In this document: positions 3,808 to 38,196 of the stretch, one piece after another
Layout of the letters: every line of letters starts with the position of its first letter
Position numbering within the stretch: the first letter of the stretch is position 1
Source of the DNA: a virus
Direction: 5' to 3' (one strand)
Virus record (IMG/VR): IMGVR_UViG_3300009167_000012
Coordinates: 1 to 41,753 of that record
DNA length: 41,753 bases
Position numbers and translations under genes: made by a program
The notes under the pieces: generated by a model
What the model saw: the letters and a program-made list of their open reading frames with translations, nothing else
The model's database searches: none
Told to the model about the DNA's origin: nothing

Positions 3808-4149
3808 TCACGGCCCGGAAAAGAAGATGTAGACGCTGCCGGCCGTGTCGCCGATCACGCGAAACCCTGTGTGTCCTGCTCGCAAGATGAAGTCTTGCCA
3901 GCCGTCTGTTGGTTCAAACAACGCGTCACCCGCTGTCGCCGCGCCAACGTCCGCATCGCCGAACACGATGTGACAGTTCGCTGTGACTTTGACCGACATG
4001 TAGATCGGCGGGTTCTTCTCGCGCGAGTCTGCAGCTCGCAGCTGCTGAAACGTGCTCGAGATCGTGGTGTAGTCGAACTTGACCGTAGAGCCAGGACCAC
4101 CCGGGCTGTATCGGTCGGCTGCGGATGCTGTATCGAGGCCCATGATCAC
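3808..4149 (-). CDS. Small structural protein (decoration/tail type), unknown
   Basis: 113 residues with a mostly beta pattern, including CHIVFGDADVGAATAGDALF and GFRVIGDTAGSVYIFFSG. Similar small 'fv-GD...G..v' proteins occur in podovirus structural modules, but I cannot name the family. The start used is a GTG overlapping the upstream stop (GTGA), with GGAG four bases before it. An ATG two codons later (4143) is a real alternative, ten bases from the same GGAG. Confidence 0.6.
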   Translation of the reverse strand: MIMGLDTASAADRYSPGGPGSTVKFDYTTISSTFQQLRAADSREKNPPIYMSVKVTANCHIVFGDADVGAATAGDALFEPTDGWQDFILRAGHTGFRVIGDTAGSVYIFFSGP

Positions 4150-5885
4150 TCTTCTCCGAAGCTGTACGTTATGCCGCTCTGCGGCCGTGACATCTGAGCG
4201 CTCTCGCTTTCGAGGTCGCGCATCAACTTGCGAAACATCGGCTCTTTGCCGAGGTTCGTGATCTTCGCGTCGAGCGCGGAATCGTTGGGGTCGAGCATCG
4301 CTGCGTATGGCCCGAGCTTGGCCGGATTGGACCGGAGCGTTTCGCGCACAAGCTTGTGCCCGACTGCGACGTCAGCGCCCGGCTCTTGCTGCTGCGAGCG
4401 GCGGGCGGTCGCGTCCATTGCCGCGCCGCGCATGGCAGGAAGCGCTCGATCAGCGGCGCCTCCGAGCCCCTGTAGCGCTCGCATCATGTTCGCGTCTATG
4501 TCAGCGCCACGCGTGCCCAGTGTTTGGCGGATGCCCGCGTTCGTGCCCGTGAGCGCTGCTCCACCGCCCGCGAGCAACGCTGTGTCGAGCGGGTCTTGTC
4601 CGGTCGCCACGCCGCCAAGCGCTCCGATGCCGCCGCCTGCAATAGCGCTCGCGATGATCGCGGGCGCGCCGCCGCTTTGCTCGCCGCCCGCTTTGTCCGT
4701 AAGCGACTTCAGCAGCGTTGCCAGCTCGCTGTATTGCTGGTTCTCCGCCTGGTACTCGTCGTAACGCGGAGTGGTCTGCATGATGCCGTGGAGCTCGTCG
4801 CGCATGAAACCGCCCGCGGTCGCGTTCGCCTGAGCGCTCGCTTTCTCGGGGACCGTTCCGGCTTTGCCTACGTGGCCTTTGGCCTGCAGGTTCGACTTGT
4901 TCGTGATGACGTCCCGCAGACTCTGCGCCGGGTCGGCCTTCGCGATCAGACCGGCCGATTCGCGGAATGCGTTCGCGGCTTGGACGTCCTCCTGCGAGCG
5001 CGCGTTCCGCAGCATGGCGTCGGCCTCTTGCGCCATCCTTTGCGAAACCGATGCGTCGACTAGTGGAGCTACTTTGCCCCGTCCCATTTGCTCAGCCTCG
5101 GCCACCATGTCGCCCAGTCGGCCGCCGCTAGCTGCGAGCTTGTCCTCGACCACGCGGGCGTGCCCGAGCGAGTCCATGCCCAGGGGCGGGCTCGGGCTGT
5201 ACTTCTCAAGCAAGCGCCCGGGATCGTCGATCGCGTCGAGGCCGTAGACCTTCGCCGCCGCCTTAGCGTCAGCGGCGGTCCCGCCCGCGACGACGTTGCG
5301 CCACCTGTCAGCCATGCGCCCTGCGCCTTGTCCGATCGCGCCGGCCACATCTCCGGCTGCTCCGAGCACGACGCTTGCGCCTGCGCCGCGCATAATCTCG
5401 TTCGCGACGTCCGAAAGGCTCCCGCCCTTGTCGACCGCGTCTCTGACGCCAGTCACTGCGCCCTGTGCGCCGCCCTCGAGCACGCGATTGCCTACGCTGG
5501 CGAGAGCACGGGCACCCAGGCCAGCGCCTTTCGCAGCTGCAAAGGGGCCCGACATCATGCCCATGTACAGGTCGGACGGCCCGAGCGCGTTCTCAGGGTG
5601 CACGCCTTGGGCGTTCATCCGCGCCTGATATTCAGCCGCTTGCTGCTGCGCTGGACCGTTCAGCAGCTGACGGGCAAACCCACGCACCCCGCCCTCCTCC
5701 TGCGGCGGCGGCTTGGATGCAGGGTCGTAGCCGACGAAGCTCGGCGCCTCGGGGATCTCCGGGTCCTGCGACGGGAGGTTCCGCGCCTCGTCCATCGCGA
5801 GCAGCCGATCGAGCTCGCTCTCGCCACCCTGCGACCGACGCAGGTTATCCTCGTCCTGCGCGATCAAGTCGTCGAGCGCACCCAT
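4146..5885 (-). CDS. Internal virion / DNA-ejection-type protein 3
   Basis: 579 residues rich in Ala, Gly and Gln. Several Gly/Ala hydrophobic stretches could insert in membranes (around residues 105-125, 165-190 and 400-440, for example PAIIASAIAGGGIGALGGVA), separated by long helical charged stretches. This is the usual look of podovirus internal or ejection proteins that build a trans-envelope channel, and it is the third of three such genes between the nozzle gene and the fibre genes. The start ATG overlaps the upstream stop by one base (TGATG), with GAGGTG five bases ahead. No catalytic motif was seen. Confidence 0.6.
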   Translation of the reverse strand: MGALDDLIAQDEDNLRRSQGGESELDRLLAMDEARNLPSQDPEIPEAPSFVGYDPASKPPPQEEGGVRGFARQLLNGPAQQQAAEYQARMNAQGVHPENALGPSDLYMGMMSGPFAAAKGAGLGARALASVGNRVLEGGAQGAVTGVRDAVDKGGSLSDVANEIMRGAGASVVLGAAGDVAGAIGQGAGRMADRWRNVVAGGTAADAKAAAKVYGLDAIDDPGRLLEKYSPSPPLGMDSLGHARVVEDKLAASGGRLGDMVAEAEQMGRGKVAPLVDASVSQRMAQEADAMLRNARSQEDVQAANAFRESAGLIAKADPAQSLRDVITNKSNLQAKGHVGKAGTVPEKASAQANATAGGFMRDELHGIMQTTPRYDEYQAENQQYSELATLLKSLTDKAGGEQSGGAPAIIASAIAGGGIGALGGVATGQDPLDTALLAGGGAALTGTNAGIRQTLGTRGADIDANMMRALQGLGGAADRALPAMRGAAMDATARRSQQQEPGADVAVGHKLVRETLRSNPAKLGPYAAMLDPNDSALDAKITNLGKEPMFRKLMRDLESESAQMSRPQSGITYSFGEE

Positions 5886-7447
5886 CAGAGCACCTCAAGC
5901 GAGGGGTTCAGTGCCTTGAGGCGCTTCGCGCGCTCGGGGTCGACCTGCATTGATTCGCCGCCGAGCCGGATCGTAACCATGCCGCCGCTCGGGGCTGGCG
6001 GAGCAGCCGGTTCGGTCGCTGCCGGCTGCGCTCGAGCTCGAGCACGGGGAGCGCTCCGGCGAGGCGCCATCGGTTCGACCCGCTTCGAGCCGTATGGGCC
6101 GAACCCGTATTCGCGCGCGGTGCGCTCATCGGCTGCCACGAGCGCGTCCTGTACGCCCTTCAGCTGGTCGAGCTTGATGTCGCCGCCCGTGAGTAGGCTT
6201 GCGATGTCGAGCGGGCTTGCTTCGGCTGGTAGGCCCAGGAACTTGGCCATTGACTGTCGGTCGCCCTCTTGGATCGTGGCCATGTCGTTTGCTTGTGCGA
6301 ACAAGCCTTCGAGATGCGAGCGCTCAGTGAGCATCCGAGACTTGGCCCGGCCCGGAGTGATTAGCTTCTGGGCTTCCTGCTCGCGGATCGAGACCATCTC
6401 GCCGATCGAATCGACGAGGCCGGCAGAAGCGCGCAGCCGCTTCTGCGCTTCCTTCGAGGCTTCGGGGCTCCGCTTGATGCGGTCCGCGCGCTCCGGGTCG
6501 AGCACCTCACGAGCGAGCGGATCGACGAAGCTCTCGGCGGCGACGTCGCCCTCGGCGCCGAGCCTTCCCGCTGTCGAGCCTGCCGCTTCCTTGGACTTGG
6601 TTTCGGCGGTGACGTCCGCGAGCTCGCTCTCGGTCTTGATTCGAGCTGCCGTGGTTGCCGCCGAGCCAGCGCCCGAGACTGTCGCGGTCGTTGCTGCGGA
6701 AGTCGGCGCCATCTCGGCCTCCGTCTTGATGCGCTGGCCTGTCGATGCCGCGGTCGTGCGCCGCGCCTTTTCGGCTGCGTCGCCCGCTTCGATGTTGGCG
6801 AACGCGTGGTCGACCTCGTGGCCAGTCACGGTGGCGCGATCGCGCAGCGCTGCCGCGGTCATGTTGCCGATCGACGGGTCAACGCCATTGGCGATGAGCT
6901 GGTCGCGCAGCTGCACCGTGCGCGGATCGTCCGGGTTGTGCAGATAGCTGTGTGCATCCTCGGCAAGCTTCGTGCGTCGCGCACCCTGGCTGACTTGCTC
7001 GCCGCGGTACCCCGCGTTCTGATTGGCGAGCCCGATGCGGTCGCGTTCGTTGAGCACGCCGAGCTGCTTGTAGGCGCGATCAAACGCGTTCCCGCCCAGC
7101 GACGACTCGCGCTGCTTGCGCTGCGCCAGCGCATATTCGCGGTCTGCAATCAGCCGCTTCTGGTCTCGGTCAGCGTTTGCGGCAGCCGAAGCGATGCCGG
7201 CTTGTGCGATGCCGCTGATGCCCTGCCCTTTGTTCGTCGCAGCGTCGAGCCCAATCCCGACTGCGCTCGGGAGCACGTCGCGCAGCAGCTGGCCGATGCT
7301 GTAGTCGCTCTGCCCGTTGAGACGGTCGAGCGATTGCGATTCCTCGCCGCGCCACCTGCCTTGCAGCTCCTGATCGCGAGGGTCGGGCGTGTAGCTGCCC
7401 ATCTGCGCCAGGAGTTGTTTGATCTGCTCGTCGTCTTCGCCGTACAT
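5885..7447 (-). CDS. Internal virion-type protein 2
   Basis: 520 residues from the ATG chosen here (7447), which has GAGGG five bases ahead. A TTG four codons upstream is also open but badly spaced. The protein is helical, Ala/Arg/Glu-rich, with repeated 'ATTA-RIKTE(S/A)E' segments in the middle (RIKTEAEMAPTSAAT and RIKTESELADVTAE), and it ends with a compact MVTIRLGGESMQVDPERAKR tail. No enzyme motif. Context and composition suggest an internal core or ejection component. It could instead be a tail-associated coiled-coil protein. Confidence 0.6.
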   Translation of the reverse strand: MYGEDDEQIKQLLAQMGSYTPDPRDQELQGRWRGEESQSLDRLNGQSDYSIGQLLRDVLPSAVGIGLDAATNKGQGISGIAQAGIASAAANADRDQKRLIADREYALAQRKQRESSLGGNAFDRAYKQLGVLNERDRIGLANQNAGYRGEQVSQGARRTKLAEDAHSYLHNPDDPRTVQLRDQLIANGVDPSIGNMTAAALRDRATVTGHEVDHAFANIEAGDAAEKARRTTAASTGQRIKTEAEMAPTSAATTATVSGAGSAATTAARIKTESELADVTAETKSKEAAGSTAGRLGAEGDVAAESFVDPLAREVLDPERADRIKRSPEASKEAQKRLRASAGLVDSIGEMVSIREQEAQKLITPGRAKSRMLTERSHLEGLFAQANDMATIQEGDRQSMAKFLGLPAEASPLDIASLLTGGDIKLDQLKGVQDALVAADERTAREYGFGPYGSKRVEPMAPRRSAPRARARAQPAATEPAAPPAPSGGMVTIRLGGESMQVDPERAKRLKALNPSLEVL

Positions 7448-7455
7448 GGAAACCC

Positions 7456-9699
7456 TCAAATCCTGTAGGTGGGGTTGAGCCCTCGCAGAGCGTCCTCGAC
7501 TTCTTTGTTCGTCGTGCGCGTTAGGTCGGTGCGCTTGCCCGCCGTGTCGATCTTCTTCCCGGCCATCCCCTCAGCAGCGCGGCGTGACGCCTCTTGGGCG
7601 TCGCGATCCATCCCGGCCTGAGTCGAATCGATCCCCCAGTTGTTCATCGCAACGCCGATGCCAGTCTGCGCGGCCGTGTTCGTTCGGCCGAAGCTTTGGT
7701 CAAGCGCGCGTTGCGTTGCGTCGTCGAGCCCAAACTCGTTGTCCGAGATGTTCTTGTTTACGGTGTTTTTGTTCTCAAACGACTGCTGCTGAAGCCCTGT
7801 CAACCGCTCGTACTCCGACTGCTTGAAGGACGTGTTGTAGCGGTCGGTGATGCCCTGCTGTTCATTGTTGAACATGTTCACGGAATCGTTGGCGCTGCGA
7901 ATCGCATTCGCCTGATTCGCCTGGATACCCGCGCCACCGAGCCGCGTAGACTGGTTGTTTGCGCTCGCGGTATCAGCACCCACGCCGCGCGCGTACTGCT
8001 CGTCGAAGCCTTGTTTGCGCTGGATCTGCGACGCATTCGTGTAGGCGCCCTGCGCTGCCAAGTCGCCGCTACGCAGTGCGTTCGACGAACTCTCCATGCC
8101 TTGCAGGCCGTAGAGAGCGCGTTGCACCGCTTGAGCCTGCGCTCCGATCGTGCCCGCGGCGCGCTCCTCACCGAGCTGTTGCTGAGCTGACTGCTGCTGA
8201 GCAATCTGCCCTGCGCCCGACATGACGCCACGCGCCTGGAGGTCGCGCGACACTGCATCGCGGTTCGCCTTGTCGTGGATCGCGAACTGTCGCTGAGACT
8301 GCGCGAGGATCGCGCGCTCCTCGGCCGTCATCTCCGGATGCGAGATGTCGCGGTAGCGGTTGAGGACCTCTTGCTGATTCTTGCCGCCCGTCAGCGCGTT
8401 CTCGCGCAGCATCCCGATGCCTTCGAGCGCGCGCGCGATGTCATCCGGGTTTGCGTAAGCCTTCGCAGCCTGTGACTCGTAGTCGAGGCTGCCGCCCGCG
8501 ATCGCCTGCGCCTGCGCGAGACTCGCCCGCTGCGCCGCCAAACCCTCGGGGTCGAACTGCACATTCTGCCGCGTCGTGCCCGCGATCTCTGTTTGATATG
8601 GCGCGATGCCGCTCTGATAGCTGCTGAGAGCGTCTCTATACCCTGCGTTCGAAGTGTTGACCGCGTTCGTGAGTCGCGCCGTGGATGCGCTCGACTTAGC
8701 GTTGGTATCGTCAGCAGCCTGCGTCAGCTTTTGGCTGATCGTGTTCATCTGCTGCTTGCTCAGCGCGCCAGACTCGGCGAGCTTGGCCAGCGTCTGCTTC
8801 GCCGCCTCGTCGGTCTCCTTGTTCTTCGATCCGAGGTCGGCGAGCGCGCGAGATGTGACGTTGTCGAAGTAGCCGAGGCTCGCGGCCTGCGTGATCGACG
8901 CGTTGTTTACGATCTGCTGCGAGCTGCCGCCTGCACCGGGGACTTTCGTCGGGTCGGTGAGGCCGGGGTAGGTCTTGGCGCCGCCGCTGAGGTTCCGAGC
9001 AACGCCGCTCGTGTAGCGCAGCGCGCCGTCTGGGTTCGCCGCCTTGACTTGCTGGGTGTACTCCTCAAGCGACATGCCCTGCTGCTTGGGGCCGTTCTCC
9101 CAGCCTTTTCGGATGTTGGCAGGATCTAACGGATCGGTTACCGGGCCGTTCTTCGCGAGCTCGGGATCGACCCACTTGCCGTTGATGTACTGGCCGGCAG
9201 GTTGCCCGCCGGCGCTTCCGCCGCTGGCTGTGCCGCGCAAGCCTTCGAGCGCCTGCAACGCTGACAGCGCCTCCTCGTCAGTCTTGGCGCCCTGCAACGT
9301 CTTCGTTGCCTGGTCCTGTCGCTGCGGCAGGTATTCCGCGTCGAGCTGGGCCTGCGTCTGACGAAGCTCGCGCTTCTTGTCGTCGCTGACAGCTGGCGAC
9401 GCTAGAGCCTCGTCGATCTTCGCCGTCTCGCGGTTGTAGTAGTCCATGCTGCCGTCACCCGGCGTTGCCCGTACGTCGGCACCCGGCAGCGTCGCGAGCG
9501 CGCCGAAAAACTCGGCATTCGTCCCCGGCACGTAGTCAGAGTTTTGCTTGCCAACAGGCTGGGCCTGACTGTGCCCGCTCACAGGCTGCCACTGCCCGTT
9601 GTTCGCGAGATAGTTCGCCTTGTAGTCCGGATACGGGACAGGCCGGCCGTCTGCCTCCCACGCTGCAACGATGATTTGATCAGAGGTGTTGGCGGGCAT
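7456..9699 (-). CDS. Internal virion-type protein 1, Gln/Asn/Ala-rich
   Basis: 747 residues. The N-terminal 60 residues are polar (PYPDYKANYLANNGQWQPVSG). The rest is a very long helical region rich in Gln, Asn, Ala and Ser (QQQSAQQQLGEERAAG; NNEQQGITDRYNTSF), typical of large podovirus internal virion proteins. I see no lytic transglycosylase or peptidase motif, so no muralytic activity is claimed. The ATG overlaps the upstream stop by one base (TAATG). It is the first of three consecutive proteins of this type downstream of the nozzle gene. Confidence 0.6.
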   Translation of the reverse strand: MPANTSDQIIVAAWEADGRPVPYPDYKANYLANNGQWQPVSGHSQAQPVGKQNSDYVPGTNAEFFGALATLPGADVRATPGDGSMDYYNRETAKIDEALASPAVSDDKKRELRQTQAQLDAEYLPQRQDQATKTLQGAKTDEEALSALQALEGLRGTASGGSAGGQPAGQYINGKWVDPELAKNGPVTDPLDPANIRKGWENGPKQQGMSLEEYTQQVKAANPDGALRYTSGVARNLSGGAKTYPGLTDPTKVPGAGGSSQQIVNNASITQAASLGYFDNVTSRALADLGSKNKETDEAAKQTLAKLAESGALSKQQMNTISQKLTQAADDTNAKSSASTARLTNAVNTSNAGYRDALSSYQSGIAPYQTEIAGTTRQNVQFDPEGLAAQRASLAQAQAIAGGSLDYESQAAKAYANPDDIARALEGIGMLRENALTGGKNQQEVLNRYRDISHPEMTAEERAILAQSQRQFAIHDKANRDAVSRDLQARGVMSGAGQIAQQQSAQQQLGEERAAGTIGAQAQAVQRALYGLQGMESSSNALRSGDLAAQGAYTNASQIQRKQGFDEQYARGVGADTASANNQSTRLGGAGIQANQANAIRSANDSVNMFNNEQQGITDRYNTSFKQSEYERLTGLQQQSFENKNTVNKNISDNEFGLDDATQRALDQSFGRTNTAAQTGIGVAMNNWGIDSTQAGMDRDAQEASRRAAEGMAGKKIDTAGKRTDLTRTTNKEVEDALRGLNPTYRI

Positions 9700-10043
9700 T
9701 ACGCATCCCCGTAGGTGATTCGGAACGTGAACTCGTAGACCGTGTCGGTGCCTGGCGTGACGTCCTGGATCGACGTGATGAGCGCATCACCGTTGGTCGC
9801 GAGGTCGAAGCTGACGGCGGCGCCGTACGCCACTGGCACTTTGGGCGCGCGCGGGTTGCGGCAGCGGATCAGCTCGATCGCGATCGGCTTGCCGTCCACC
9901 TTCAGCGCCATTCCGACGTTGTACAGACCGGTGTGAACGTTGATCTCGACGTCGGGGATCCGCTCGAAGATGCCGCGTAGGTCAAGCGACTGGTCGGCCA
10001 GCGGCTTGTCGTTCCAGATCGCTTTACGAAGGTGCCGTCTCAT
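9699..10043 (-). CDS. Small beta-rich structural protein, unknown
   Basis: 114 residues, starting at an ATG that overlaps the nozzle-gene stop (ATGA). A longer open frame extends upstream but lies within the nozzle gene and is not used. The sequence alternates strands (VEINVHTGLYNVGMALKVDG; TDTVYEFTFRITYGDA), consistent with a small beta-sandwich. It lies between the nozzle and internal-protein genes, so it is probably a virion component. Family not recognised. Confidence 0.65.
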   Translation of the reverse strand: MRRHLRKAIWNDKPLADQSLDLRGIFERIPDVEINVHTGLYNVGMALKVDGKPIAIELIRCRNPRAPKVPVAYGAAVSFDLATNGDALITSIQDVTPGTDTVYEFTFRITYGDA

Positions 10044-12583
10044 CGGTATTTCTGCTGTGTTGTGAGAGGCAGATAACGAAGCGAAAGCCCCTTGAGCACG
10101 GGCGGCCCATCCGATGATGTGCAGACCAAGTACCCCGAGAGCCGAATGCTCGGCCCGATCGCTGCGCGTCTGGTTATGCCGAGTGATGCACGCGCATCGA
10201 GCGACGCGTTTAGGCTTGTCATCTTGATCGGCGCAGAGCTCTCGGTAGAGTAATCGTTGTCCCGCTGCACCATCGTCGTGAACAACACGGCGCCGAATAC
10301 CCAGGTAGCGTCTATCCAGCGCTTGAGAACGAGCGGATCTCCCGCGTAGAACGGCTGCAGGGCGAGCGCTGGGAATGGGCGAAGCGCTTGCAGTGCGATC
10401 CCTTTGTCGTCCCACGAAAACGTTTTGGGCGGTCCGCCCGACGTTTGCGCGCCAAACACCGTGTAGTTCGGGACGCCTGCGGTCGCCGATGCGACAGAGG
10501 CAGCCGCTGTGATGGCCGAGTCGGAAAACACGATCGTGCTCCACTGCTTGTAGAGCGTCGAATACAGATACATTGTCGCCGCGCCGCCCTGCGTCGCGTT
10601 CTCGAAGATGACCATGATCTCTTCGGTCACCGGGTTCGCGTAGAGGTGGATCAGCGGGGTCTCTGCGAACGGCTGGCCAGGAAACTCGGCGTCGAGCACT
10701 CCGCGAGTGATCAGCGAGGTCGTGACGCCTGCCAGCGAGCAGATACCGCGCGATGTGTAGGCGTACACGATGTCATTCAGCACGCAGCACGCATCAGGCG
10801 CGACAGGGATAAACGTCGGATCGACGAGGTCCGCGCGCCATACGCCAGCTTCTCCGCTGATGCGATACGCACCATCGGTGCAGAGCGCCCACAAGCAGTC
10901 AGTGGTCGCGAGGAACCGGATGATCGCGCCTGCGCCGATGATGCCCTCGTTCGCGCTCGGCACAGCCTCGGGCTGGTTCTGCTTGCTCCACCGAAAGAAG
11001 TTCGGCCGCGCCACAGTCGAGATGGCCAGCGGCGAGGCAGCGATGTCCGGCAGCGGCGGCGAATAGTTGTCGCCGTTGGTCGCGCGGATCGACAACGTGG
11101 GATAAGCGCCGTTGCGCCGCGGGCGCAGCAGCACTGTTATCCCAGTCATGAAGTCCAGCGAGGAATACCCGCCGGTCGGGAATGGCTCGCTCGGGAAAAA
11201 CGCCATGTCCCCGGTGAGCCAGCTGTCGCCTCCGTCCAAGATGAGAGAAACCGCGCTCGAAATCTGGATCTCAACGCCGTTGATCTCGAGCACGTCGGCA
11301 ATCCCGCTCACGGTGCTTGAGCCGTTCGCCACAGCGTTCGATGCCAAGGTGATCGTCGAGGCCCCAACAGCGATAACCTTGGTTCCGCTTGGCCAACCCG
11401 TGCCGCTCCAATAAGTCTGCCCGACCTTGATCCCGACAATGTCGGCTGCCGACACGCCGTTGATCGTCGGGGACCCGATCGAAAAGCTCACGCCTGACAG
11501 CCTGCGCAACCCAATCCCGTATTGACGCACCCACGGCGTCACTCCAGACGCGGAGCTATCGAACACGCCGGCAGGAACGTCGAACGTCCAGCTTGGGTCG
11601 TCGGTAATGTTGCCGTAGAACGTATAGTTTCCCCACTGCGCCATGGCCTTGCAGACGGGCGGGGGGAGATTCGCTCCGGTCGAGCCTTCTTGGTACGGGC
11701 TCGTGTAGATCTCCGGCCCGGCCGTCTCGTACAACGGCGCGACCATCGGCTGCCGGTCGACAAGACTGGCAAACCTCGCGGAGATCTGAGACGCGGTGAG
11801 AGGCGCAGATGCGACCATGCGCATCGATGTCCCCGGGTCAGCGTCATAGGTAGTCGACGAAAGCCCAGCCGACCGGTAGAGCTCGAACACGTCGCCCGCT
11901 GCGTAGTCGTATTGACCGCCGAGCCCTTGGTACCAGCGAATAGCGAAGGTGATTTCTCGCGACGCCCCGGCTGCGTTCAGCACGCGAATCGGTGCGCTCG
12001 GCGTCGACACCATCACGTAGCCGTCCGCGCTCGTTCTGCGGATCACCGCCTGATAACAGACGACAGTGTTGTTAGGGATGGCATCGCCCGTGCCAAACGT
12101 CACGCTGTTGTAGGTAGGCGCCGGCAGCCCAGAGCTGCGGAACACTCTCTCCCCAGCGCTGGCCGGGTTGAGGTTGTCTAGGACAAACACGCCTTGCTTG
12201 CTGTTCAAATAGCAGCGCGAGCGCTTGACGATGCTCGTGAGGTATCCGCCCGTCTCGAAGACAAGGCTCATGAACGTGGGCATGTTCAGCGTGAAGCTGT
12301 TGGCGGAGTCGCCATTGCGATAGATCGACCACGTCGTGCCAGCTGCGTTCGATTGAATCGTGAGGAACACGCCGGGCGACAGCGCCACCACGCGTTTGAT
12401 GCGGTCGTTCGTCACCCCGCTTTGGATGATCTGGAAGCGGTTGCGAATGACCGTCCACTGGTTCATTGCCTCCGCGCGCCAGTTCTCCAACACCTTGCAC
12501 GAGCCCTCGGGATAGACCCCGTACTCGTTCGGCGTGGTCACGAGCCCCTTGATCGCAAGGGTCGTAAGTCGCGGTGCAGCCAT
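10040..12583 (-). CDS. Tail nozzle-like protein (podovirus tail tubular protein B type)
   Basis: 847 residues, beta-rich throughout. The N-terminus, APRLTTLAIKGLVTTPNEYG followed by EGSCKVLENWRAEAMNQWTV, matches the familiar opening of podovirus nozzle proteins ('GLyt.PNp.s.vP.Gal..adN.vid..g...pRrGf'). Later segments such as ICSLAGVTTSLITRGVLDAEF and EEIMVIFENATQ fit the beta-propeller and platform repeats of that family. It closes the portal-adaptor tube and contacts the fibres. It follows the adaptor gene with a TAATG overlap. The assignment is by pattern and gene order. Confidence 0.7.
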   Translation of the reverse strand: MAAPRLTTLAIKGLVTTPNEYGVYPEGSCKVLENWRAEAMNQWTVIRNRFQIIQSGVTNDRIKRVVALSPGVFLTIQSNAAGTTWSIYRNGDSANSFTLNMPTFMSLVFETGGYLTSIVKRSRCYLNSKQGVFVLDNLNPASAGERVFRSSGLPAPTYNSVTFGTGDAIPNNTVVCYQAVIRRTSADGYVMVSTPSAPIRVLNAAGASREITFAIRWYQGLGGQYDYAAGDVFELYRSAGLSSTTYDADPGTSMRMVASAPLTASQISARFASLVDRQPMVAPLYETAGPEIYTSPYQEGSTGANLPPPVCKAMAQWGNYTFYGNITDDPSWTFDVPAGVFDSSASGVTPWVRQYGIGLRRLSGVSFSIGSPTINGVSAADIVGIKVGQTYWSGTGWPSGTKVIAVGASTITLASNAVANGSSTVSGIADVLEINGVEIQISSAVSLILDGGDSWLTGDMAFFPSEPFPTGGYSSLDFMTGITVLLRPRRNGAYPTLSIRATNGDNYSPPLPDIAASPLAISTVARPNFFRWSKQNQPEAVPSANEGIIGAGAIIRFLATTDCLWALCTDGAYRISGEAGVWRADLVDPTFIPVAPDACCVLNDIVYAYTSRGICSLAGVTTSLITRGVLDAEFPGQPFAETPLIHLYANPVTEEIMVIFENATQGGAATMYLYSTLYKQWSTIVFSDSAITAAASVASATAGVPNYTVFGAQTSGGPPKTFSWDDKGIALQALRPFPALALQPFYAGDPLVLKRWIDATWVFGAVLFTTMVQRDNDYSTESSAPIKMTSLNASLDARASLGITRRAAIGPSIRLSGYLVCTSSDGPPVLKGLSLRYLPLTTQQKYR

Positions 12584-15636: not shown

Positions 15637-16839
15637 TTACTGGCGTCCGAAGTGCGCGTCAAAGTCAGCCATCGACTTCGATTGATTCGAGACGTGCCCG
15701 CGTGTGGGTGCCGCGCCACCGCCCGCACCTTTGGGCGCTGCGGCCCTCGCCTTCGCCGCCGCTGCCGGCTGCTTCGTGCGTTCGGCCCGCTCGTCTTCGA
15801 GGTCTTGCCGGAGAATCTGCGCTGCCTCGGACACGATTTCGCGCGTGATCGCCTGCGCGCCTTGCTGCAGAGCCAACCGCTTCACGTACTGCGTGTGACG
15901 GTCCCGGTTGACCGCGTTGTCCCTGATTCGGTGCGCCTTGAAAGCTGTTGGCGTCAGCTGCGCGAGCTGTCGCTCCATCGTGGCGCGGATCTCAGCCACC
16001 CGTGCGGAAGTGTCCACCTCTTGCCGGCTGGATTCGAGCTCACGGTTGCGGGCTTCCTTCCGGCGCAGCTCGACGTCGAGCTTGCGCTCTCTGTCGATCC
16101 TTGCCTTCGTCGCCATCATGGCGTCACGCACGCGCGCGTCGGTCTTGTCGACGCCGAGCCGGCGCATGACCGCATATCCGGCAGCCTCGATCAGGCTGAC
16201 GTCCTCCTCGACGCGCTGGCGACGGATCTCGAGCGCCTGGTCGAGCACGCCATCCGGCAGCTGCCGCTCGAACACCTCCAGGAAGTTGCGAGGGTCCTCG
16301 ATCGACTTGAAGAACTCCTGGAACTTCTGCTCGCCCGCGGTGATCTGCTGCTCGCGTCGGTCCAGCTCCTGCGCGCGTCGGGTCGACTCGTTCAGCCGCA
16401 TGTAGCCCTTGGCCATCTCGCTGATCGTGACCTGCATCTCGCGACCGTTTGGCGTCACCGTCCAAAGCTTGTCACCGAGGTCGGGCGGCAGCTCCGGGCT
16501 GTCCTCGATCGCCTTCCACTTCTCGGCGGCGGCCGTGATCGCTTCGGGCGCGGCCGATTGCGCCTCGTCGTCGAGCAGCCCGTCGCTGTCGTCCACTTCC
16601 GGTTGCTCTGCGCCCTCTGTGGGCTCGTCGATCTCCGGGGCGTCCAGGTCTACCGGGTCGGTCGGCTTCGCCTGCTGGGGCGGATTCTGGTTGGACGGTT
16701 GCTGCGGCTCGGACCATGGCGTCGGCGTGTTGGCGTTCACCATCATCGAATCGAAGTCAGCCATCGAAGCTGACTTGGGTGCCGCGGCGGGTGCGGCTGC
16801 CGGCGCTGGTGCTGCTGCGGGTGCGGCTACGTCGCTCAT
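15637..16839 (-). CDS. Scaffolding protein
   Basis: 400 residues, very acidic and Pro/Ala-rich for the first about 110 residues, then long coiled-coil helices. The segment EMQVTISEMAKGYMRLNEST followed by RRAQELDRREQQI matches the 'v.vsEm.kGYmr..d.trr.qel' core of phage scaffold/capsid-assembly proteins. The basic C-terminal end (after an Ala/Lys linker) would bind the capsid protein. It lies between portal and capsid and overlaps the portal stop by four bases. A motif SMADFD occurs twice, at residues 25-30 and 389-394. It is expected to be absent from the mature virion. Confidence 0.8.
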   Translation of the reverse strand: MSDVAAPAAAPAPAAAPAAAPKSASMADFDSMMVNANTPTPWSEPQQPSNQNPPQQAKPTDPVDLDAPEIDEPTEGAEQPEVDDSDGLLDDEAQSAAPEAITAAAEKWKAIEDSPELPPDLGDKLWTVTPNGREMQVTISEMAKGYMRLNESTRRAQELDRREQQITAGEQKFQEFFKSIEDPRNFLEVFERQLPDGVLDQALEIRRQRVEEDVSLIEAAGYAVMRRLGVDKTDARVRDAMMATKARIDRERKLDVELRRKEARNRELESSRQEVDTSARVAEIRATMERQLAQLTPTAFKAHRIRDNAVNRDRHTQYVKRLALQQGAQAITREIVSEAAQILRQDLEDERAERTKQPAAAAKARAAAPKGAGGGAAPTRGHVSNQSKSMADFDAHFGRQ

Positions 16840-18968
16840 CGTGGAGATCCTCCGTTAGCTGGTTGCAGGTTCGCCGCCGCTGGCTGCTTGGCGGGCTTGG
16901 GTAGGTCGGGCGGCTCGTCGCGCTTCGGATGCGGCGGCGCCCCGTTGGCCGGCTGCTGCTGCGGCTGGCCGTCTGCTCCGGGGAGGAGCGGCGGCATGCC
17001 TGGCGGCGGTATCGGTGGGCCTCCGCCACCTGGCATCTGCTGCGCGGGCGGCACGCCGACCGAAGCGCCGAGCGTCGGGTCGAGCTGCAGCCACAGCACC
17101 ACGTGCTCCATCATGTGCTTGTTGATGAGCGCGATCGCGTCGATGCGTTGCTGCTCGACCTGCGGATCGTCGCTCGGCAGCTGACAGCGGAGCTTGTCGC
17201 GCGCGGTGCGGTGAGCGAGGTTGTGCAGGCGATGATCGTCGTCGGCCATCGCCGCGACGAGCATGCCCTCGTACATCTGCTCATTCTCCCAGCGAATCAG
17301 GAACGTCTGGGTGTCGTCGTCCTCGGTGAACGCGTCCATGTTGCCCGTCATGAGCAACTCGATCGCCTGGCGCTTCTGGTCCTTCGGCAAGTCGCGGATG
17401 CTATCGAACACGTCCTTGCGCACGGGGAACGTGGACATCAGCGGGTTTGCGCGTACGACCTGCACCCGACGAACAGACCGCACCTGCTCGTTCTTGAAGT
17501 ACTTCATGAACGGCTGATTGCTGACGCCGCTCACCTCGATCGCGTAGCCGTTCTCGGCGTTGTTGCGGATGAACTCGAGCGCGCCATTCGCGACGCGGTG
17601 CAGCATGTCGTCGTACGCGGCTTGCGTCGCGTGCTGGTAGCGCTCGGCGACGTTCACGAGCAGCGCCATAGCGGTGCCGCTCTGCACGTTGCCCTCGGGC
17701 TTGCCGAGCACTGTGGCGTTGAGCCCGCTGACCTGGTTCATCACGCCGGGCAGATACTCCAGCAGGTACTTCGCGATCTCGGGCATCGCTGCCCACTGGA
17801 TCGCCTGCGGAGGTTTCTGGCCTGCCCCGAGCGTGAAGAACCCGCCGCCCTCGGCGATCTTGTCCGCGTCCCACTCGACGCCGGTCTCGGCCCACAGCGA
17901 CTCGTTGCCGAACTTCATCAGGTTGTTGACGACCTGTGAGAGCACGTCGTCGAGCACCTCTTGCTGCGACACGAGATCGGACACCTCGGGGTAGCCGAGC
18001 ATCGTTCCGAAGTAGCGCATGGTGCACATCGGAAAGACGGGCATGTCCTCGTCGAGCGGGCACGGGTTGTCCTCGAGCGTGAGCTCTTCGAGGCACACCG
18101 CATGCCGACCGCCCGGAACCGCGGCGCAGTTCTTGTGATAGAAGTGCCGCACGATCACGAGGTCGGTCGTGGCGATCCCAGAGTTGAACGCGAACAACTC
18201 GCGGTCCATGTCCGCGTTGAAGTTGTCGATCGCAAGGATCTTGTCGGCGAGCTCGGGGAACTGCGCGGCAAGCTCGAACTTCGAGACCGATTCCTTGACA
18301 ATGAACCAGGCCGGCTCGTCGACGAAGATCTCGCTGATCACCTGCCACGGAAACAAGCGCTTGAGTCGGATCGTGCCCGAGCGCACTTGCGTGTCGACCA
18401 TGACAGGCTGCGGCTTGCCCGCCTGGTCAGCCCACATCAGCGGCTGGCCGGCCTCGTCCTTCGCCGGCACCTTGCCCGGGACCATGTTTCCGCCTGTTAC
18501 GTCCCACGTAAGCCACAGGTAGCCTTGGCCGAAGTAGCGGTCAGCCTCGACTGCGCTGTAAGCCTTCGCGTCAAACCTCGCTTCGCGCAGCGAGTAGTCG
18601 ATCAGCTTGTTCGTGATGTTGACTTGCGACAGCGATGCAACGTCGTTGTTCGCCGCAACACCTTGGAACTTGGGCCGCTCGCCGAGCGCGAGCATGATCG
18701 ACTGACGCACGTTCGGCCGCGACAGGTTCGTGCGGAACCGCAGCGAATCCATCTCGGGGCCGAGGTACTGCACGCCAGTCTGATGCAGCGTGCTCGGGTC
18801 GATCCCGTACGTCTGACACCAGACCAGATACCAAGCGCGCGGCAGCTGGTGGGTGTTGAGCGCTTCACGCCACGACGTCTCGATGGTTGGCAGCAGACCG
18901 GGCAGCTGCTCCTTTGGCGCGCTGCCGAAGTACTGCGCGCCGCTCAACACTGCTGTCTGCTGCTCCAT
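16836..18968 (-). CDS. Portal protein
   Basis: 710 residues, a size typical of the large podovirus portals. Segments such as TLHQTGVQYLGPEMDSLRFR near the start, the wing-like block IRLKRLFPWQVISEIFVDEP, YFGTMLGYPEVSDLVSQQEV followed by LDDVLSQVVNNLMKF, and QVSGLNATVLGKPEGNVQSG followed by TAMAL (the usual 'sG.aia.l' helix before the stem) support the call. The last 100 residues are Pro-rich and disordered. The portal is the dodecameric DNA gate at one vertex and docks the terminase. GGAG lies seven bases before the ATG. It overlaps the scaffold gene by four bases. Confidence 0.85.
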   Translation of the reverse strand: MEQQTAVLSGAQYFGSAPKEQLPGLLPTIETSWREALNTHQLPRAWYLVWCQTYGIDPSTLHQTGVQYLGPEMDSLRFRTNLSRPNVRQSIMLALGERPKFQGVAANNDVASLSQVNITNKLIDYSLREARFDAKAYSAVEADRYFGQGYLWLTWDVTGGNMVPGKVPAKDEAGQPLMWADQAGKPQPVMVDTQVRSGTIRLKRLFPWQVISEIFVDEPAWFIVKESVSKFELAAQFPELADKILAIDNFNADMDRELFAFNSGIATTDLVIVRHFYHKNCAAVPGGRHAVCLEELTLEDNPCPLDEDMPVFPMCTMRYFGTMLGYPEVSDLVSQQEVLDDVLSQVVNNLMKFGNESLWAETGVEWDADKIAEGGGFFTLGAGQKPPQAIQWAAMPEIAKYLLEYLPGVMNQVSGLNATVLGKPEGNVQSGTAMALLVNVAERYQHATQAAYDDMLHRVANGALEFIRNNAENGYAIEVSGVSNQPFMKYFKNEQVRSVRRVQVVRANPLMSTFPVRKDVFDSIRDLPKDQKRQAIELLMTGNMDAFTEDDDTQTFLIRWENEQMYEGMLVAAMADDDHRLHNLAHRTARDKLRCQLPSDDPQVEQQRIDAIALINKHMMEHVVLWLQLDPTLGASVGVPPAQQMPGGGGPPIPPPGMPPLLPGADGQPQQQPANGAPPHPKRDEPPDLPKPAKQPAAANLQPANGGSPR

Positions 18969-19659: not shown

Positions 19660-19976
19660 CGGTTGTATCCCTTGGATGGAAGGCTGGCGATCGCACCGCC
19701 GACCTTAGTTGCGAGGTCCTTCTCTCTCTTCGCGACCGATGCCTCGACCTGGTCGAAGCGCTTCAGCCAATCGATGCCCAGCGCTTCGGTAACCTTCGCG
19801 TTCTTGTCCGCTGTCGCCTGCGCGCGAAGCACGTCGACCGCGACCTCTTGCACGTTCGATTCGATCTGCGTGAGGCGCGCGTCGTACTTCTCGATCGCGA
19901 TGCCGCGCAGCTTTCGGCGTGCAATGTCCCACGCGAGCGCGCCGAGAATCACAAGCGCGATAGATACCTCTGTCAT
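19656..19976 (-). CDS. Small N-terminally anchored coiled-coil membrane protein
   Basis: 106 residues. Residues 4-17 form a hydrophobic segment (VSIALVILGALAWDIARRK) followed by positive charges, then a long amphipathic helix (ARLTQIESNVQEVAVDVLRA). This looks like a type II membrane protein with a coiled coil. It could be an inner-membrane spanin-like protein, but the location between terminase and portal does not specially support that. The ATG overlaps the terminase stop (ATGA). The much longer frame continuing upstream is inside the terminase gene and is not used. Confidence 0.55.
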   Translation of the reverse strand: MTEVSIALVILGALAWDIARRKLRGIAIEKYDARLTQIESNVQEVAVDVLRAQATADKNAKVTEALGIDWLKRFDQVEASVAKREKDLATKVGGAIASLPSKGYNR

Positions 19977-21675
19977 CTGCCGTATCGCTTTCTGCCCTGT
20001 ACCGGGCGCATGACCTTCCGCTGATATTCCTCGGGCACGATGAGGTCGGGCGCGTGCGGGTCGACGTGCGCCGGCTTCCACGGGTTCAGCTCCCACGCGA
20101 CAACGCGCACGCCGTACGCGAGTGCCATCAGTGCATCGAGGTGACCGAGCGTCTTCGATTCCTCGAAGTCGGTGCGCTTCTCGTTCCAGCGACCCGAGCG
20201 CAGCTGTGCGATCAGCGGCTTGTTCGCTTCGTTCTTGATGATGCGTAAGCGGCACTGCTTGAGCAGCACATCGAGGTTGTTGATGTGCGCGCGCTTCGAG
20301 CCTTTGCCCTTCACGGCAGTCTCGAAGCTCAGCCCGTGCAGCTGTCGGAGGTCGAGCTGCATCTGCGTGGCGACGTCCGAGATGCGGCGGGCAGGGTTGG
20401 CGCGTAGCGAGCGCTTCTCGTCGTCCCACCACGTGAGCGCGCCTTGTGGTGCGTCCCACACGACCGCGCCGGGCAGCACCTTTGCGCCGATGATCTCTGT
20501 CGCGTGCTGTAGACCTGCGCCGGGCGCGCGCATCTCGGTTGTTGGCTTGAGCAGGTCTTGGATCCGCAAGTCGCGCGGTGGCTTCTGGGCCAGCGGCTGC
20601 GCTTGCCACAGTTCCTGCTCGGTCGAGCGTATGACCTCGGCGATCACATCCGTGTTCTTGTTCGACTCGGCATACGTCGACTGGACCGTGATCAAGCCCT
20701 GGATGAAATCGAGATAGAAGAACACGATGCCGCACTTGTCGCGCACGCCCGGGTCGAGCGACGTGTATGCGAGCGCATAGAGCGGTAGCTCGACGTCGTT
20801 TGCTGGCACCACATGCAGCAACTCGTTGAAGCTCGGGCACACCGCGCGCTGCTCGTCCGCGATGATTCGGCAGTAGGCCTCGCGCTGAGCGATCGCAGTC
20901 TCGCGCCCGCCAAGCTCGGCGAGCTCCATCTCGATCTCTTCGGCTGTGAGGTCGGTCTGGTCGATCGTGCGGAGCACATGCGTGCCGCGACCCTCGCAGT
21001 CCTCTTTGAACCGCGTCTGAAACTCGTGGTCGGGCACCGGCGAGGTCGAGCTCTCGAACAGCGCCCACGCATGCGGCCGGCCGCGGAACTGCGGAGTGAT
21101 GACGCCGCGAAAGGTGTCGTCGAGCTTCCCCGGAGACACGAACCCCGCCTCGGTCACATACACAAAGTCCTGGAAGTTGCCGCGCGTCTTGTCGCTGTGG
21201 AGGTCGAGCCCCACGAGCGTGATCGTGCTGTTCGTCGCGGGAATCCAGAGCAGGTGATGCTCGCCGTCCTTGCTCGCGCGGTACACCGGGCAGTAGCCGG
21301 GCGGAGCTTCTGGCTCGAACACCGTGCGTAGAATCTTCAGGATGATCGAGCCAATCGAGTTCTGATAGGCGGTGCAGAGCAAGCCCACGCTGCCCGGCCT
21401 GCGTATGCAGAACTCGATGATGATCAGCAGCGCGAGCACGGTCTTGCCCCAGCGACGCGCGATCTCCAACACCACAGACGGTAGTACTTGAAGCCCGCCG
21501 CTCCCCACGCTCGACGCTTCTCGATCAGATGCTTCGTCGCCTGCCACGTCCAAAAGGCGTCGTACACATCGCGCTGATGCGGGAGCACCATGTAGCTCAA
21601 GTCTCCCGCTTTCCAACATATGTACCGTTGCTCCTGCTCGCTCAGATCGGCGAGCGCGATTGGGTCAGCTGACAT
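19973..21675 (-). CDS. Terminase large subunit, interrupted by a -1 frame change near 21475-21485
   Basis: Packaging ATPase/nuclease. The N-terminal frame starts at the ATG 21675 (MSADPIALADLSEQEQRYIC) and runs to about 21478. The main frame continues in the -1 register with SVVLEIARRWGKTVLALL, which holds Walker A (RRWGKT), then the Walker B-like VYVTEAG (the usual Asp before Glu is Thr). The nuclease domain has Asp in YTSLDPGVRDKCG and the third acid in LGHLDALMALAYG. Neither frame alone gives a whole protein: the 548-residue main frame has no sensible start near the ATPase core, and the other frame stops at 21424. Joined, it is about 567 residues, normal for the family. Probably a single-base deletion or sequencing error; programmed frameshifting is less likely, as no slippery heptamer is visible. 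Confidence 0.8.
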
Positions 21676-22030
21676 CAGTGCGCGACGCAGCGCGCTTGGC
21701 CTGGTAGCTGGCCGCTAGCTGCTGCGACACTTCCCCGAGCTGTCCGCGCTCTACAACCACCACGCGCACGTTGTCGTCGTCGTCGCTGTCCACGTCCGAG
21801 CGCTCTTGCAGCTTCAGCTTGGCGCTGTCGACTGTGCACTCGGCATACAGGCTGATGATCTTCGAGGCCGCTTTCTCCCGCACCTGCTCGCGCGCGCTGT
21901 TCTTAGCGAGGTGAACCAGCGTCGAGACGGCGCCGTCGATGTTCGGCTCGAGCTTCGCGCGCAGCCGATCGAGCCAGGTGATTTCCTGCTCGATGATGCT
22001 CACGCCTGCCGGTGTGCGGCCTTCCTTCAC
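21665..22030 (-). CDS. Candidate terminase small subunit
   Basis: 121 residues immediately upstream of the large terminase. The central helical part, DGAVSTLVHLAKNSAREQVR followed by EKAASKIISLY, resembles the helical repeat of small terminase subunits that precedes the oligomerisation region. An acidic run (SDVDSDDDDN) and a beta strand follow. The role would be DNA recognition for packaging. It has ATGA overlap with the upstream small HTH gene, which is an alternative candidate for the DNA-binding part of the packaging machinery. Confidence 0.55.
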   Translation of the reverse strand: MKEGRTPAGVSIIEQEITWLDRLRAKLEPNIDGAVSTLVHLAKNSAREQVREKAASKIISLYAECTVDSAKLKLQERSDVDSDDDDNVRVVVVERGQLGEVSQQLAASYQAKRAASRTDVS

Positions 22031-29168: not shown

Positions 29169-29342
29169 TCACTGCTTCCTCTGGCGCTGTTTCTTCGAGT
29201 ACTCGTTGAGCCCGTCGAACCCGTAGAAGTCGTCAGGGTGCGACGTTGGCGCGGTTCGCTTGCGCTTCGTCGTGCTCCGCTCACGCATCTTGCGGAGCTT
29301 GCGCTGGTCGGGCGTTTCCTTGAGAAGATCCCAGATGTTCAT
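29169..29342 (-). CDS. Small very basic protein
   Basis: 57 residues, highly basic (RKLRKMRERSTTKRKR) with an aromatic middle (DDFYGFDGLNEY) and KKQRQRKQ at the end. Probably nucleic-acid binding or an unstructured linker protein; no family recognised. It starts at an ATG overlapping the methyltransferase stop (ATGA). Confidence 0.55.
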   Translation of the reverse strand: MNIWDLLKETPDQRKLRKMRERSTTKRKRTAPTSHPDDFYGFDGLNEYSKKQRQRKQ

Positions 29343-29971
29343 TGCCACCACTCCACATTGACGCCGCTCGCGCTGACCTCGACTGGATGCAGCTCAGGGC
29401 GGCGCACGACGTCGATCGTGCACATGTCGGTCATGCCCCCGTTCTTGTTGCCGCTGTACTTCGGGCGCGAGGCGTGGATGACGAGCCGCTTGAGGTAAGC
29501 TTGCGACCACAGCCCGGCGCGCCGGTCTTGTCCTGCGAGCGTTGTCAGGGGGCAATGGCACACCGCCCGATCTGCCAAGTCGAGCGCGTGCAGGATGTGC
29601 TCCTCGGTCTGCCCACCCTCAAACGGCGGGTTGAGCACCGCGATGTGGAACGCTCCGAGCGTGTCTACGTGGAGTTGCAAGAAGTCGGCTTCATGCGTCT
29701 CGAAGCCGCAGCGACCGAGGTACTCAGCGTTCTGCGGGTCGATGTCCACGCAAGTCACAGACTTGACGAACGCGCGCAGCACCATCGCGAGCGCGCCACG
29801 TCCGGCGCTTGGTTCGAGCGCGCGCCACGTCGTCTTGACCATGCCGTCGTTGTACGGTCGCAGCGCCCATTCAGCGATTCGCGCTGCGAGGTACGGGTCG
29901 AGGTACCACTGCGATTTGCTCGGGTCGCACTTATCCGGGTTCTCCGGATTCACTAGTTGGAAGTCGATCAT
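29339..29971 (-). CDS. DNA N6-adenine methyltransferase-like protein
   Basis: 210 residues. Motif I LEPSAGRGAL (residues 52-61) binds S-adenosylmethionine, CVDIDPQNAEYL follows as the acidic strand end, and NPPF (114-117) is the catalytic motif of amino-methyltransferases acting on adenine. No target-recognition domain is obvious and no restriction partner is adjacent, so it is an orphan enzyme, perhaps protecting phage DNA from host restriction or marking replicated DNA. The start is fixed by a SAS-like leader and ATGA overlap. Confidence 0.8.
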   Translation of the reverse strand: MIDFQLVNPENPDKCDPSKSQWYLDPYLAARIAEWALRPYNDGMVKTTWRALEPSAGRGALAMVLRAFVKSVTCVDIDPQNAEYLGRCGFETHEADFLQLHVDTLGAFHIAVLNPPFEGGQTEEHILHALDLADRAVCHCPLTTLAGQDRRAGLWSQAYLKRLVIHASRPKYSGNKNGGMTDMCTIDVVRRPELHPVEVSASGVNVEWWQ

Positions 29972-30147
29972 GTGTCTTGTCCTGGTTGGTTGGTGTTGTC
30001 GTTCGCGGGCAAGCGCGCCTTGAGCGCGCACACCTCTAGTCGCATGTGGTCGACGCTCATTGACGGGCGTCCGTGATCGTCGAGCGTGTTCGCGAGCTCG
30101 CGGAGCGCGTCGATCACTCGGTCGTGGGCGGATCGAAGCGCAGCCAT
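29968..30147 (-). CDS. Small helical protein, unknown
   Basis: 59 residues (HDRVIDALRELANTLDDHGR; HMRLEVCALKARLPAND). It starts at an ATG inside the end of the RusA-like gene, 31 bases before that gene's stop, so start choice is less secure than for neighbours. The C-terminal codons (NTNQPGQ) are the SAS-like leader of the next gene. No family recognised. Confidence 0.5.
   Translation of the reverse strand: MAALRSAHDRVIDALRELANTLDDHGRPSMSVDHMRLEVCALKARLPANDNTNQPGQDT
29981..29993 (-). promoter_or_regulatory. SAS-like start-associated element, copy 8
   Basis: The - strand reads CCAACCAACCAGG, nine bases before the methyltransferase ATG, within the previous coding frame. Confidence 0.8.
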
Positions 30148-30743
30148 ATCTGGATTCCGAACATCCTTGGAAACGGTTCGTACTTCGCTTGCCTGTAAAC
30201 CCATTTGACGCCCTGTTGTTTGATCCAGCCGTCTGCTTGTCCGATCGTGTTGAGGTGCTCGCGCCACGCTGCGCCGTCACGCGCATAGCGGCAGAGCGAG
30301 TCGCGAATCGCCTTGAAGCAAAAGCCCAAGTTGTCGTCGTCCATCTCGGTTTTTGGATTGCCGGCGCGTGGCGATAGGCGCACGTAGTCGATCGCGCGCA
30401 AGCCATCGAGCCCGTTCGGGTAGTAGCCCTGGATGATCGTCGCGACGCTATCGCGCAGCTCGGCGTACTCCTCCTGCTCACGCTTCACGCGCCACTTCAG
30501 TTGTTTCGCTGTGATGTTGTGGATGCCAATCTTCTTCGGTTGTTCGAGAAAGATCGGCAGCTGCACGATGTGCACGCCGGTCGCGCGCCACACGCGATGC
30601 AGCTGCGGCACCATGCACTTTGGCCGCTTCGGCGCTTTCGGTGCCTTGGCCTCCTTGAGCCGAGGCTTGCCGCTGATGGCTGCGCGGATGTCGGCGGCCA
30701 GCTCGGGGTCGTTGATCGCGTTGCGCGCGTACGAGCGGGTCAT
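30114..30743 (-). CDS. RusA-like Holliday-junction endonuclease (probable)
   Basis: 209 residues. The segment EMDDDNLGFCFKAIRDSL (Asp135, Asp137, Asn138, Lys144, Asp148) matches the 'DxDN..K...D.L' signature of RusA-type resolvases, preceded by a strand (AIDYVRLSPR) and followed by strand-like FGIQIWLRF. It would cut branched DNA before packaging or during recombination. An extra N-terminal region (about 60 basic residues) is longer than in Escherichia coli RusA. It starts at an ATG overlapping the upstream stop (ATGA). Located among replication genes. Confidence 0.6.
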   Translation of the reverse strand: MTRSYARNAINDPELAADIRAAISGKPRLKEAKAPKAPKRPKCMVPQLHRVWRATGVHIVQLPIFLEQPKKIGIHNITAKQLKWRVKREQEEYAELRDSVATIIQGYYPNGLDGLRAIDYVRLSPRAGNPKTEMDDDNLGFCFKAIRDSLCRYARDGAAWREHLNTIGQADGWIKQQGVKWVYRQAKYEPFPRMFGIQIWLRFDPPTTE

Positions 30744-36166: not shown

Positions 36167-36264
36167 CCGAGCTACTCGCATTCATCGACAACCATCTCTA
36201 CCTGTCGACGTTCTGGCTGTTCATGGTCTGCTGCGCGGTCGCGTGCATCGGAGGTTCGAGATGA
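36163..36264 (+). CDS. 33-residue single-span membrane peptide
   Basis: MTELLAFIDNHLYLSTFWLF then MVCCAVACIGGSR: one transmembrane helix (about 12-30) and a very short basic end. Bracketed by ATGA overlaps with both neighbours. Small membrane peptides are often toxins or modulators of host membrane proteins; here the function is unknown. Confidence 0.55.
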   Translation: MTELLAFIDNHLYLSTFWLFMVCCAVACIGGSR

Positions 36265-37241
36265 CCATCGAAGTCGACGCAGAGGGATTTGTGCGCGGGT
36301 TCGAGATCGGCCGCCGCTCGTACCGCGAGCTGCAGCACCCGCCACTTAGCTTCAGCAAGGCGAAGGTTGTGCTCTCTTGTCCCGAGGATGCATGGCGCCT
36401 AACGCTCCGATCGGAGCGCGTCGAGCGCGAGACCTCAGACGCGATGGACGACGGGAACATCCTGGATTGCCTGCTCACCGCTAGTAATCCATACGACCCG
36501 ATCAACTATCCAACGCGGCAGATGACCGCGCCCACCAAGAAGGCAACCGAGCCGGTCAACTACAGCGACTGGAACGGCCTACGCATCATCGAAGCAGACA
36601 CGATGCAAACCGCAGCGGCGAAGCTCTGCGCGTCGACTGCTCGTGCCGAGGATCTAACGCCCGTACTTTTGAGCAAGTTCGTGCGCGAGGTCGAGCGAGC
36701 AAACGACATGCTCATCCGGATGGAGCTCGCAGGCTTCGACCGCAGCAAGTACCACTACCAGGTCAACCTGATGTGGACAGAGGACGCTCGGAACGGCATG
36801 CGAGTGCAATGCCGCGGGCGCCTCGACTTCCTCGCGAAGGACTGGACGGAGGTCGTTGACCTGAAGCGCGTCGAGGACCTCTCGCAGCTGTCGCTCGAGC
36901 GCGCTGTCGATCGGTACCGCTGGGCAATGCAGGCTGCGGCGTACTCGCGCGCGGTCGTGCTGCTGACTGCTGCTGGCTTGGGCGCGGAGCCAATGCCTGG
37001 CGGTGTCGGCGGTGTGCCGTCGTGGCGCTGGCTGTTCGCGCGCACGTCACCAGTGGTCGCGTGCACGTTGCGCCCGGCTGAGGCTGCGCTCCTGCAGGCC
37101 GGTGAAGCCGCTTGGAACCGCGCGGTGAACGACTGGGCCGAAGGGCTCGCGACCGGGCTGTGGCGCGGCCACGAGGCCGACCACACACCGCTGAATCCTA
37201 CGTCATGGGCACTGGAGCAAATGGAGGCTGACCTTGTCTGA
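36261..37241 (+). CDS. RecE/Exo VIII-like PD-(D/E)XK exonuclease
   Basis: 326 residues. CRGRLDFLAKDWTEVVDLKR (Asp189, Asp200, Lys202) is the active-site core and QAAAYSRA (Gln224-Tyr228) the conserved Q...Y motif of the PD-(D/E)XK / exonuclease VIII type. The usual early His of the family appears replaced (GNILDCLL, Asp at that place). It would resect double-stranded DNA ends for recombination, paired with the ATPase that follows. Start ATG overlaps the upstream stop (ATGA). Confidence 0.75.
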   Translation: MTIEVDAEGFVRGFEIGRRSYRELQHPPLSFSKAKVVLSCPEDAWRLTLRSERVERETSDAMDDGNILDCLLTASNPYDPINYPTRQMTAPTKKATEPVNYSDWNGLRIIEADTMQTAAAKLCASTARAEDLTPVLLSKFVREVERANDMLIRMELAGFDRSKYHYQVNLMWTEDARNGMRVQCRGRLDFLAKDWTEVVDLKRVEDLSQLSLERAVDRYRWAMQAAAYSRAVVLLTAAGLGAEPMPGGVGGVPSWRWLFARTSPVVACTLRPAEAALLQAGEAAWNRAVNDWAEGLATGLWRGHEADHTPLNPTSWALEQMEADLV

Positions 37242-38196
37242 GTTCACGCACGAAGTAGCGCGGCCGGGGAACCTGCCGCTCGCGATCAGCATCGCTGGCG
37301 GTCCGAAGTCCGGGAAAACCAAGTCAGCGCTGCGCATCGCGAAGGGAGTGCAGCAAGCGAAGGGCGGCGACATCTGGCTCATCGACACCGAGAACCGCGC
37401 GCACGAGTACGGCGACCAGATAGCGTTCCAACGCGTGCCGCTCAAGCCGCCGTTCAGCGCGGCGCGTTTCCACGCGGCCACCAAGTACGCCTACGACAAC
37501 GGCGCGCGAATCGTCGTGCTCGACAGCATGAGCGACGAGCACGACGGCGCAGGCGGGCTCATCGACATGCACGAGGCCTTTCTGCGCGATCGCACGGGCA
37601 GCACCGAGCCGACCGAAGGTGACCGCGGCCGGTACGGACAGCAGGGTTGGGCGCGTGTGAAGCCCGTTCGTAAGCGCATGGAGAACTACTTCCGCGAGCT
37701 TCGCGACTTCGAGGACGTTGTCTTCATCTTCTGCTTCCGCGCGAATCTCAAGTACGTGCCGAAAACGAAGGACGACAAGCTCCGCATGTCCGCTGGCGAG
37801 GTGAAGTCCGATCCCACCGACGTACAGTGGGAGGTCACGAGCACTTCGGACATCCCGTACATCTGCAGCGTGAGCTTTCTGCTGATTCCCGGAGAGTCTG
37901 GAACGCAGCTCGTGAAGGCGACCACCGAGGCCGAAAAGAAGCTCATCCTCCGCACGGACACGTACGGACCGTACCTGCAGACCGTGAAGCAGCTCGACGA
38001 GTCCGTGGGCCGCAAGCTGTACGAGCTCGCGAAAGGCTCAGCGCGCGCGAGCTCGCCGACGACGAAGCTCTACGAAGTGACCGACCAAAACGGCGAGACG
38101 AAGCCGAAAGAACTCACGCCAACGCAGGCCGAGGGCTTCCGCAAGCGCGGGTTCTCGGTCGTCGAGGTGCCGGAGCAGGAGAGCGCAGCCGAATGA
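37234..38196 (+). CDS. Sak4-like RecA-fold ATPase (single-strand annealing/recombination)
   Basis: 320 residues from a TTG start with GGAGG six bases ahead. Walker A GGPKSGKT (residues 22-29), an acidic strand end IWLIDTENRA and Walker B RIVVLDSM (Asp97) define a small RecA-like core as in phage Sak4 recombinases. A C-terminal extension is Lys-rich and ends acidic. It sits directly after the exonuclease, overlapping it by eight bases, the usual two-gene phage recombination module. Sak4 identity is inferred from fold and context. Confidence 0.7.
   Translation: MSEFTHEVARPGNLPLAISIAGGPKSGKTKSALRIAKGVQQAKGGDIWLIDTENRAHEYGDQIAFQRVPLKPPFSAARFHAATKYAYDNGARIVVLDSMSDEHDGAGGLIDMHEAFLRDRTGSTEPTEGDRGRYGQQGWARVKPVRKRMENYFRELRDFEDVVFIFCFRANLKYVPKTKDDKLRMSAGEVKSDPTDVQWEVTSTSDIPYICSVSFLLIPGESGTQLVKATTEAEKKLILRTDTYGPYLQTVKQLDESVGRKLYELAKGSARASSPTTKLYEVTDQNGETKPKELTPTQAEGFRKRGFSVVEVPEQESAAE

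Follow-up and report, generated by a model that had tools for sequence, protein, structure and literature searches.

Large terminase genes and recoded phage genes

The large terminase subunit of phages (TerL), assigned to phrog_2 and, in the relatives considered here, matching Pfam PF03237 (Terminase_6N), is usually, if not by strict definition, encoded in one continuous reading frame. The TerL locus described here resembles this family in its domain order, Walker A motif, catalytic glutamate and nuclease acidic positions, and likewise has a probable small terminase gene directly upstream, while it differs from the family by one frame change and by a threonine at the place of the Walker B aspartate. 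The closest relative recovered is the TerL of IMGVR_UViG_3300046535_001175 (L016), which is 30% identical over 555 columns and shares the long linker before IARRWGKT and the S/T-E-A-G form of Walker B, but is intact as a single frame of 603 aa. Proteobacteria phage MWH-Nonnen-W8red 1 (CP017838.1, host Silvanigrella aquatica) possesses homologous TerL and portal proteins and homologues of parts of the capsid and tail proteins; its TerL, about 25% identical, is unlike the present one in being intact and in having a shorter linker. Another system that invites comparison is the programmed −1 frameshifting in genes for tail-assembly chaperones (lambda G/GT type). Here too two frames overlap and are related by a −1 step, but the locus differs in having no slippery heptamer, in not encoding a tail chaperone and in not being conserved among relatives.

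The window, meaning the whole stretch of DNA analysed, is an entire virus record of 41,753 bases, a metagenome-assembled contig of an uncultured phage with 64% GC. Its TerL is, with high probability, an ordinary phage terminase carrying one indel, whether through an error in the consensus or through a genuine mutation of recent date, and not the product of a new mechanism.

A terminase encoded in two frames

The TerL locus lies on the minus strand, where the N-terminal segment (frame A) and the ATPase/nuclease body (frame B) occupy different frames. Frame A extends from an ATG at 21675 to a TGA at 21426-21424, and frame B is open after a stop at 21667-21665 through to the stop at 19973, with an overlap between the two of about 240 bases; reading from frame A into frame B requires a −1 step. 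The features of the locus are as follows.

21665..22030, minus strand: probable small terminase subunit, directly upstream of TerL (weak match to phrog_2538, E 0.0035)
21424..21675, minus strand: frame A open reading frame, 83 aa, TerL N-terminal part to about 21480 (WKAGDLSYMVLPHQRDVYDAF ... FKYYR)
21479..21664, minus strand: open upstream extension of frame B, considered non-coding (strongly negative codon score across most of its length; run length common off-frame)
21471..21483, minus strand: favoured site of the frame change (codon-usage optimum 21480/21474, profile optimum 21477)
19973..21478, minus strand: TerL body in frame B, comprising the ATPase and nuclease domains, the Walker A motif ARRWGKT and the conserved acidic residues

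The probable small terminase gene and the TerL start overlap by 11 bases. The frame change sits just before the ATP-binding motif (Walker A), and the last 17 or so codons of the frame A open reading frame are an out-of-frame reading.

Both parts are homologous to TerL. The frame B body matches the phrog_2 terminase large subunit in PHROGs (E 5.6e-17), while the 83-aa product of frame A taken alone gave no significant family match in Pfam or PHROGs. A TerL profile built from only seven relatives was run over every stop-to-stop frame in the window: frame A was aligned to profile positions 23-66 (E 2.8e-5) and frame B to positions 55-455 (E 7.5e-86), and none of the other frames was significant against it. 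These matches bear out the initial annotation, in which TerL had been described as split by a −1 change before Walker A.

The body carries Walker A ARRWGKT, and D242, D368 and D448 (P0001 numbering) are invariant in the alignment. At the N-terminus, the signature W-x-A-G-[DE]-L-S-Y followed by Q is common to the window TerL, the CP017838.1 phage and one further relative (L012). The stretch from this N-terminal Q motif to Walker A (21475-21560, minus strand) exceeds that of most relatives by some 17-20 residues; in L016 it is similarly long. Within VYVTEAGF (21140-21163, minus strand), the Thr takes the place of the Walker B Asp, a position at which L016 has Ser, L009 has Glu and the other relatives have Asp; the catalytic Glu beside it is retained, and Walker B is possibly relaxed in the lineage of this TerL.

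Position of the frame change

When the two frames were joined in the profile comparison, the score rose from 284 bits without the N-terminus to as much as 308 bits, with the best join at 21477. Joins from about 21561 to 21471 lay within a few bits of each other, since the linker is poorly conserved, and the location is narrowed by codon usage. Under codon frequencies derived from twelve of the record's other reading frames, frame A was favoured from 21675 to about 21483, and the best switch from frame A to frame B fell at 21480 or 21474, within a region of about 21483-21471; a switch near 21516 was about 3.5 natural-log units worse, and frame B between 21619 and 21540 had a strongly non-coding codon score. 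The junction near 21478 proposed in the initial annotation agrees with both optima.

Relatives of the terminase

Seven TerL relatives (L002, L003, L006, L009, L012, L013 and L016) were assembled. Three of them (L002, L003 and L009) came from IMG/VR by searches with the protein body or an alignment, and L006, the TerL of the Silvanigrella aquatica phage CP017838.1, was reached via the portal protein. The remaining three (L012, L013 and L016) were reached by the pattern IARRWGKT, which gave the closest relatives; six of the nine loci found with this pattern were unrelated chance matches. No relatives were obtained by a phage DNA search, by protein searches with the TerL body or its alignment in phages, plasmids and genomes, by portal, capsid and tail queries against IMG/VR, or among solved structures. 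The TerL lineage of this virus is poorly sampled, and the collections searched contain no close relative.

In all seven relatives, every one of them distant (identity at most about 30%), both parts of TerL lie in one open frame, against two frames in the window. The comparison with related phages that had been proposed for this locus returned intact genes throughout.

Search for recoding signals

Programmed −1 ribosomal frameshifting, by which ribosomes would slip from frame A to frame B and make a full-length TerL as in tail-assembly chaperone genes, fits the direction of the step and the overlap of the frames. However, a scan of the overlap (21675 to 21424) in the zero frame for X_XXY_YYZ disclosed no slippery heptamer, in line with what had been noted at first reading. 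The 121 bases of RNA around and after the site showed no excess folding relative to shuffles among pseudoknot-free structures (z +0.85; 160 of 200 shuffles folded at least equally well). The length of the overlap is itself what chance would give: inside other genes of the record, stop-free off-frame runs of at least 62 codons precede 16-29% of positions, and at the offset of frame B runs equal to the upstream extension precede 28%. Because off-frame runs of this length are common by chance at 64% GC, the overlap needs no explanation. Together with the absence of the split from all seven distant relatives, and with a limited search of the open-access literature that returned no report of a recoded TerL, these results make a programmed frameshift very improbable.

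A second reading holds that two polypeptides are made separately, an 83-aa N-terminal protein and a 500-548-aa ATPase/nuclease, which then assemble. It can draw on an ATG of frame B at 21619 preceded by a ribosome-binding-like stretch (duplex −6.6 kcal/mol), and on GTG/GTG/TTG codons of the same frame at 21475-21469. Initiation at 21619, however, would add a leader of 47 residues whose codon usage looks non-coding and which has no TerL homology, and an equally good site precedes 3 of 32 off-frame ATGs in other genes; the starts adjoining the junction have no ribosome-binding site, and none of the seven relatives is split. Separate production is accordingly regarded as very improbable. Taken more broadly, the proposition that a functional terminase arises from the two frames through lineage-specific recoding or through the internal start at ATG 21619 is also considered highly unlikely. 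The initial annotation had kept a programmed shift and separate subunits in play; each retains a slight probability, and neither finds support in the relatives or in the signals.

Integrity of the rest of the genome

Around twelve structural genes, including those for portal, scaffold and capsid and genes of tail type, look intact, as do those for a DnaB helicase, a replication initiator, an exonuclease, a methyltransferase and an integrase. The positions of two of them are given below.

16836..18968, minus strand: portal protein, intact (phrog_156, E 8.8e-12; tblastn to CP017838.1, E 8e-29)
38976-40088, plus strand: integrase (phrog_1, E 8e-26)

The genes for an Exonuclease VIII-like protein, an AAA_24 ATPase and the integrase (36243-40088, plus strand) form a block on the strand opposite the structural genes, which suggests a temperate phage. 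Within the structural block, three large intact genes at 4146-9699 on the minus strand (579, 524 and 747 aa) gave no match in PHROGs at E 0.01 and may encode internal virion or tail proteins.

The presence of an integrase, whereby the element may be temperate and reside in a host genome, is what would favour a long-decayed prophage, a dead element in which TerL would be one damaged gene among several. However, no other broken gene came to light, and old decay is hard to reconcile with a body that runs for 500 codons and has no further stop, so that a decayed element is judged highly unlikely. A methyltransferase in 29339-30481 that seemed to be a second broken gene is intact but short, and lies within an ORF that was called too long; the overlap between 9699-10544 and 10040-12583 is of the same kind, a short gene with an ORF call that extends too far.

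A single indel as the preferred explanation

One indel is the best reading because every relative has the gene intact in a single frame and the search for recoding signals was negative, and the likely one-base loss first proposed for the locus is supported on the same grounds. The indel would lie at about 21471-21483, after the N-terminal segment and before Walker A, and would leave the sequence short by one base (modulo three); the frame change would have no regulatory part. The indel could have arisen by either of two routes: the metagenome consensus may be wrong at the site, through sequencing or assembly, or the sampled phage or prophage may have undergone a recent inactivating mutation. 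Coding codon usage on both sides, together with no further stop in 500 codons, implies that the change is recent or not real. Homopolymers are the commonest place for sequencing indels; as a point against this explanation, the likely site is not a homopolymer, the nearest upstream runs being GGGG at 21506 and TTTT at 21555. We infer an error or a mutation in preference to some unfamiliar form of recoding, an error being estimated as roughly twice as probable as a mutation.

Significance

Were this terminase made from two frames, it would have no known precedent among TerL proteins. The split ought not to be cited in support of recoding or of a two-subunit motor; the finding is an ordinary one of little biological weight. 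Its consequence lies in annotation, where the marker gene of the contig will be predicted as an ATPase that lacks the true N-terminus.
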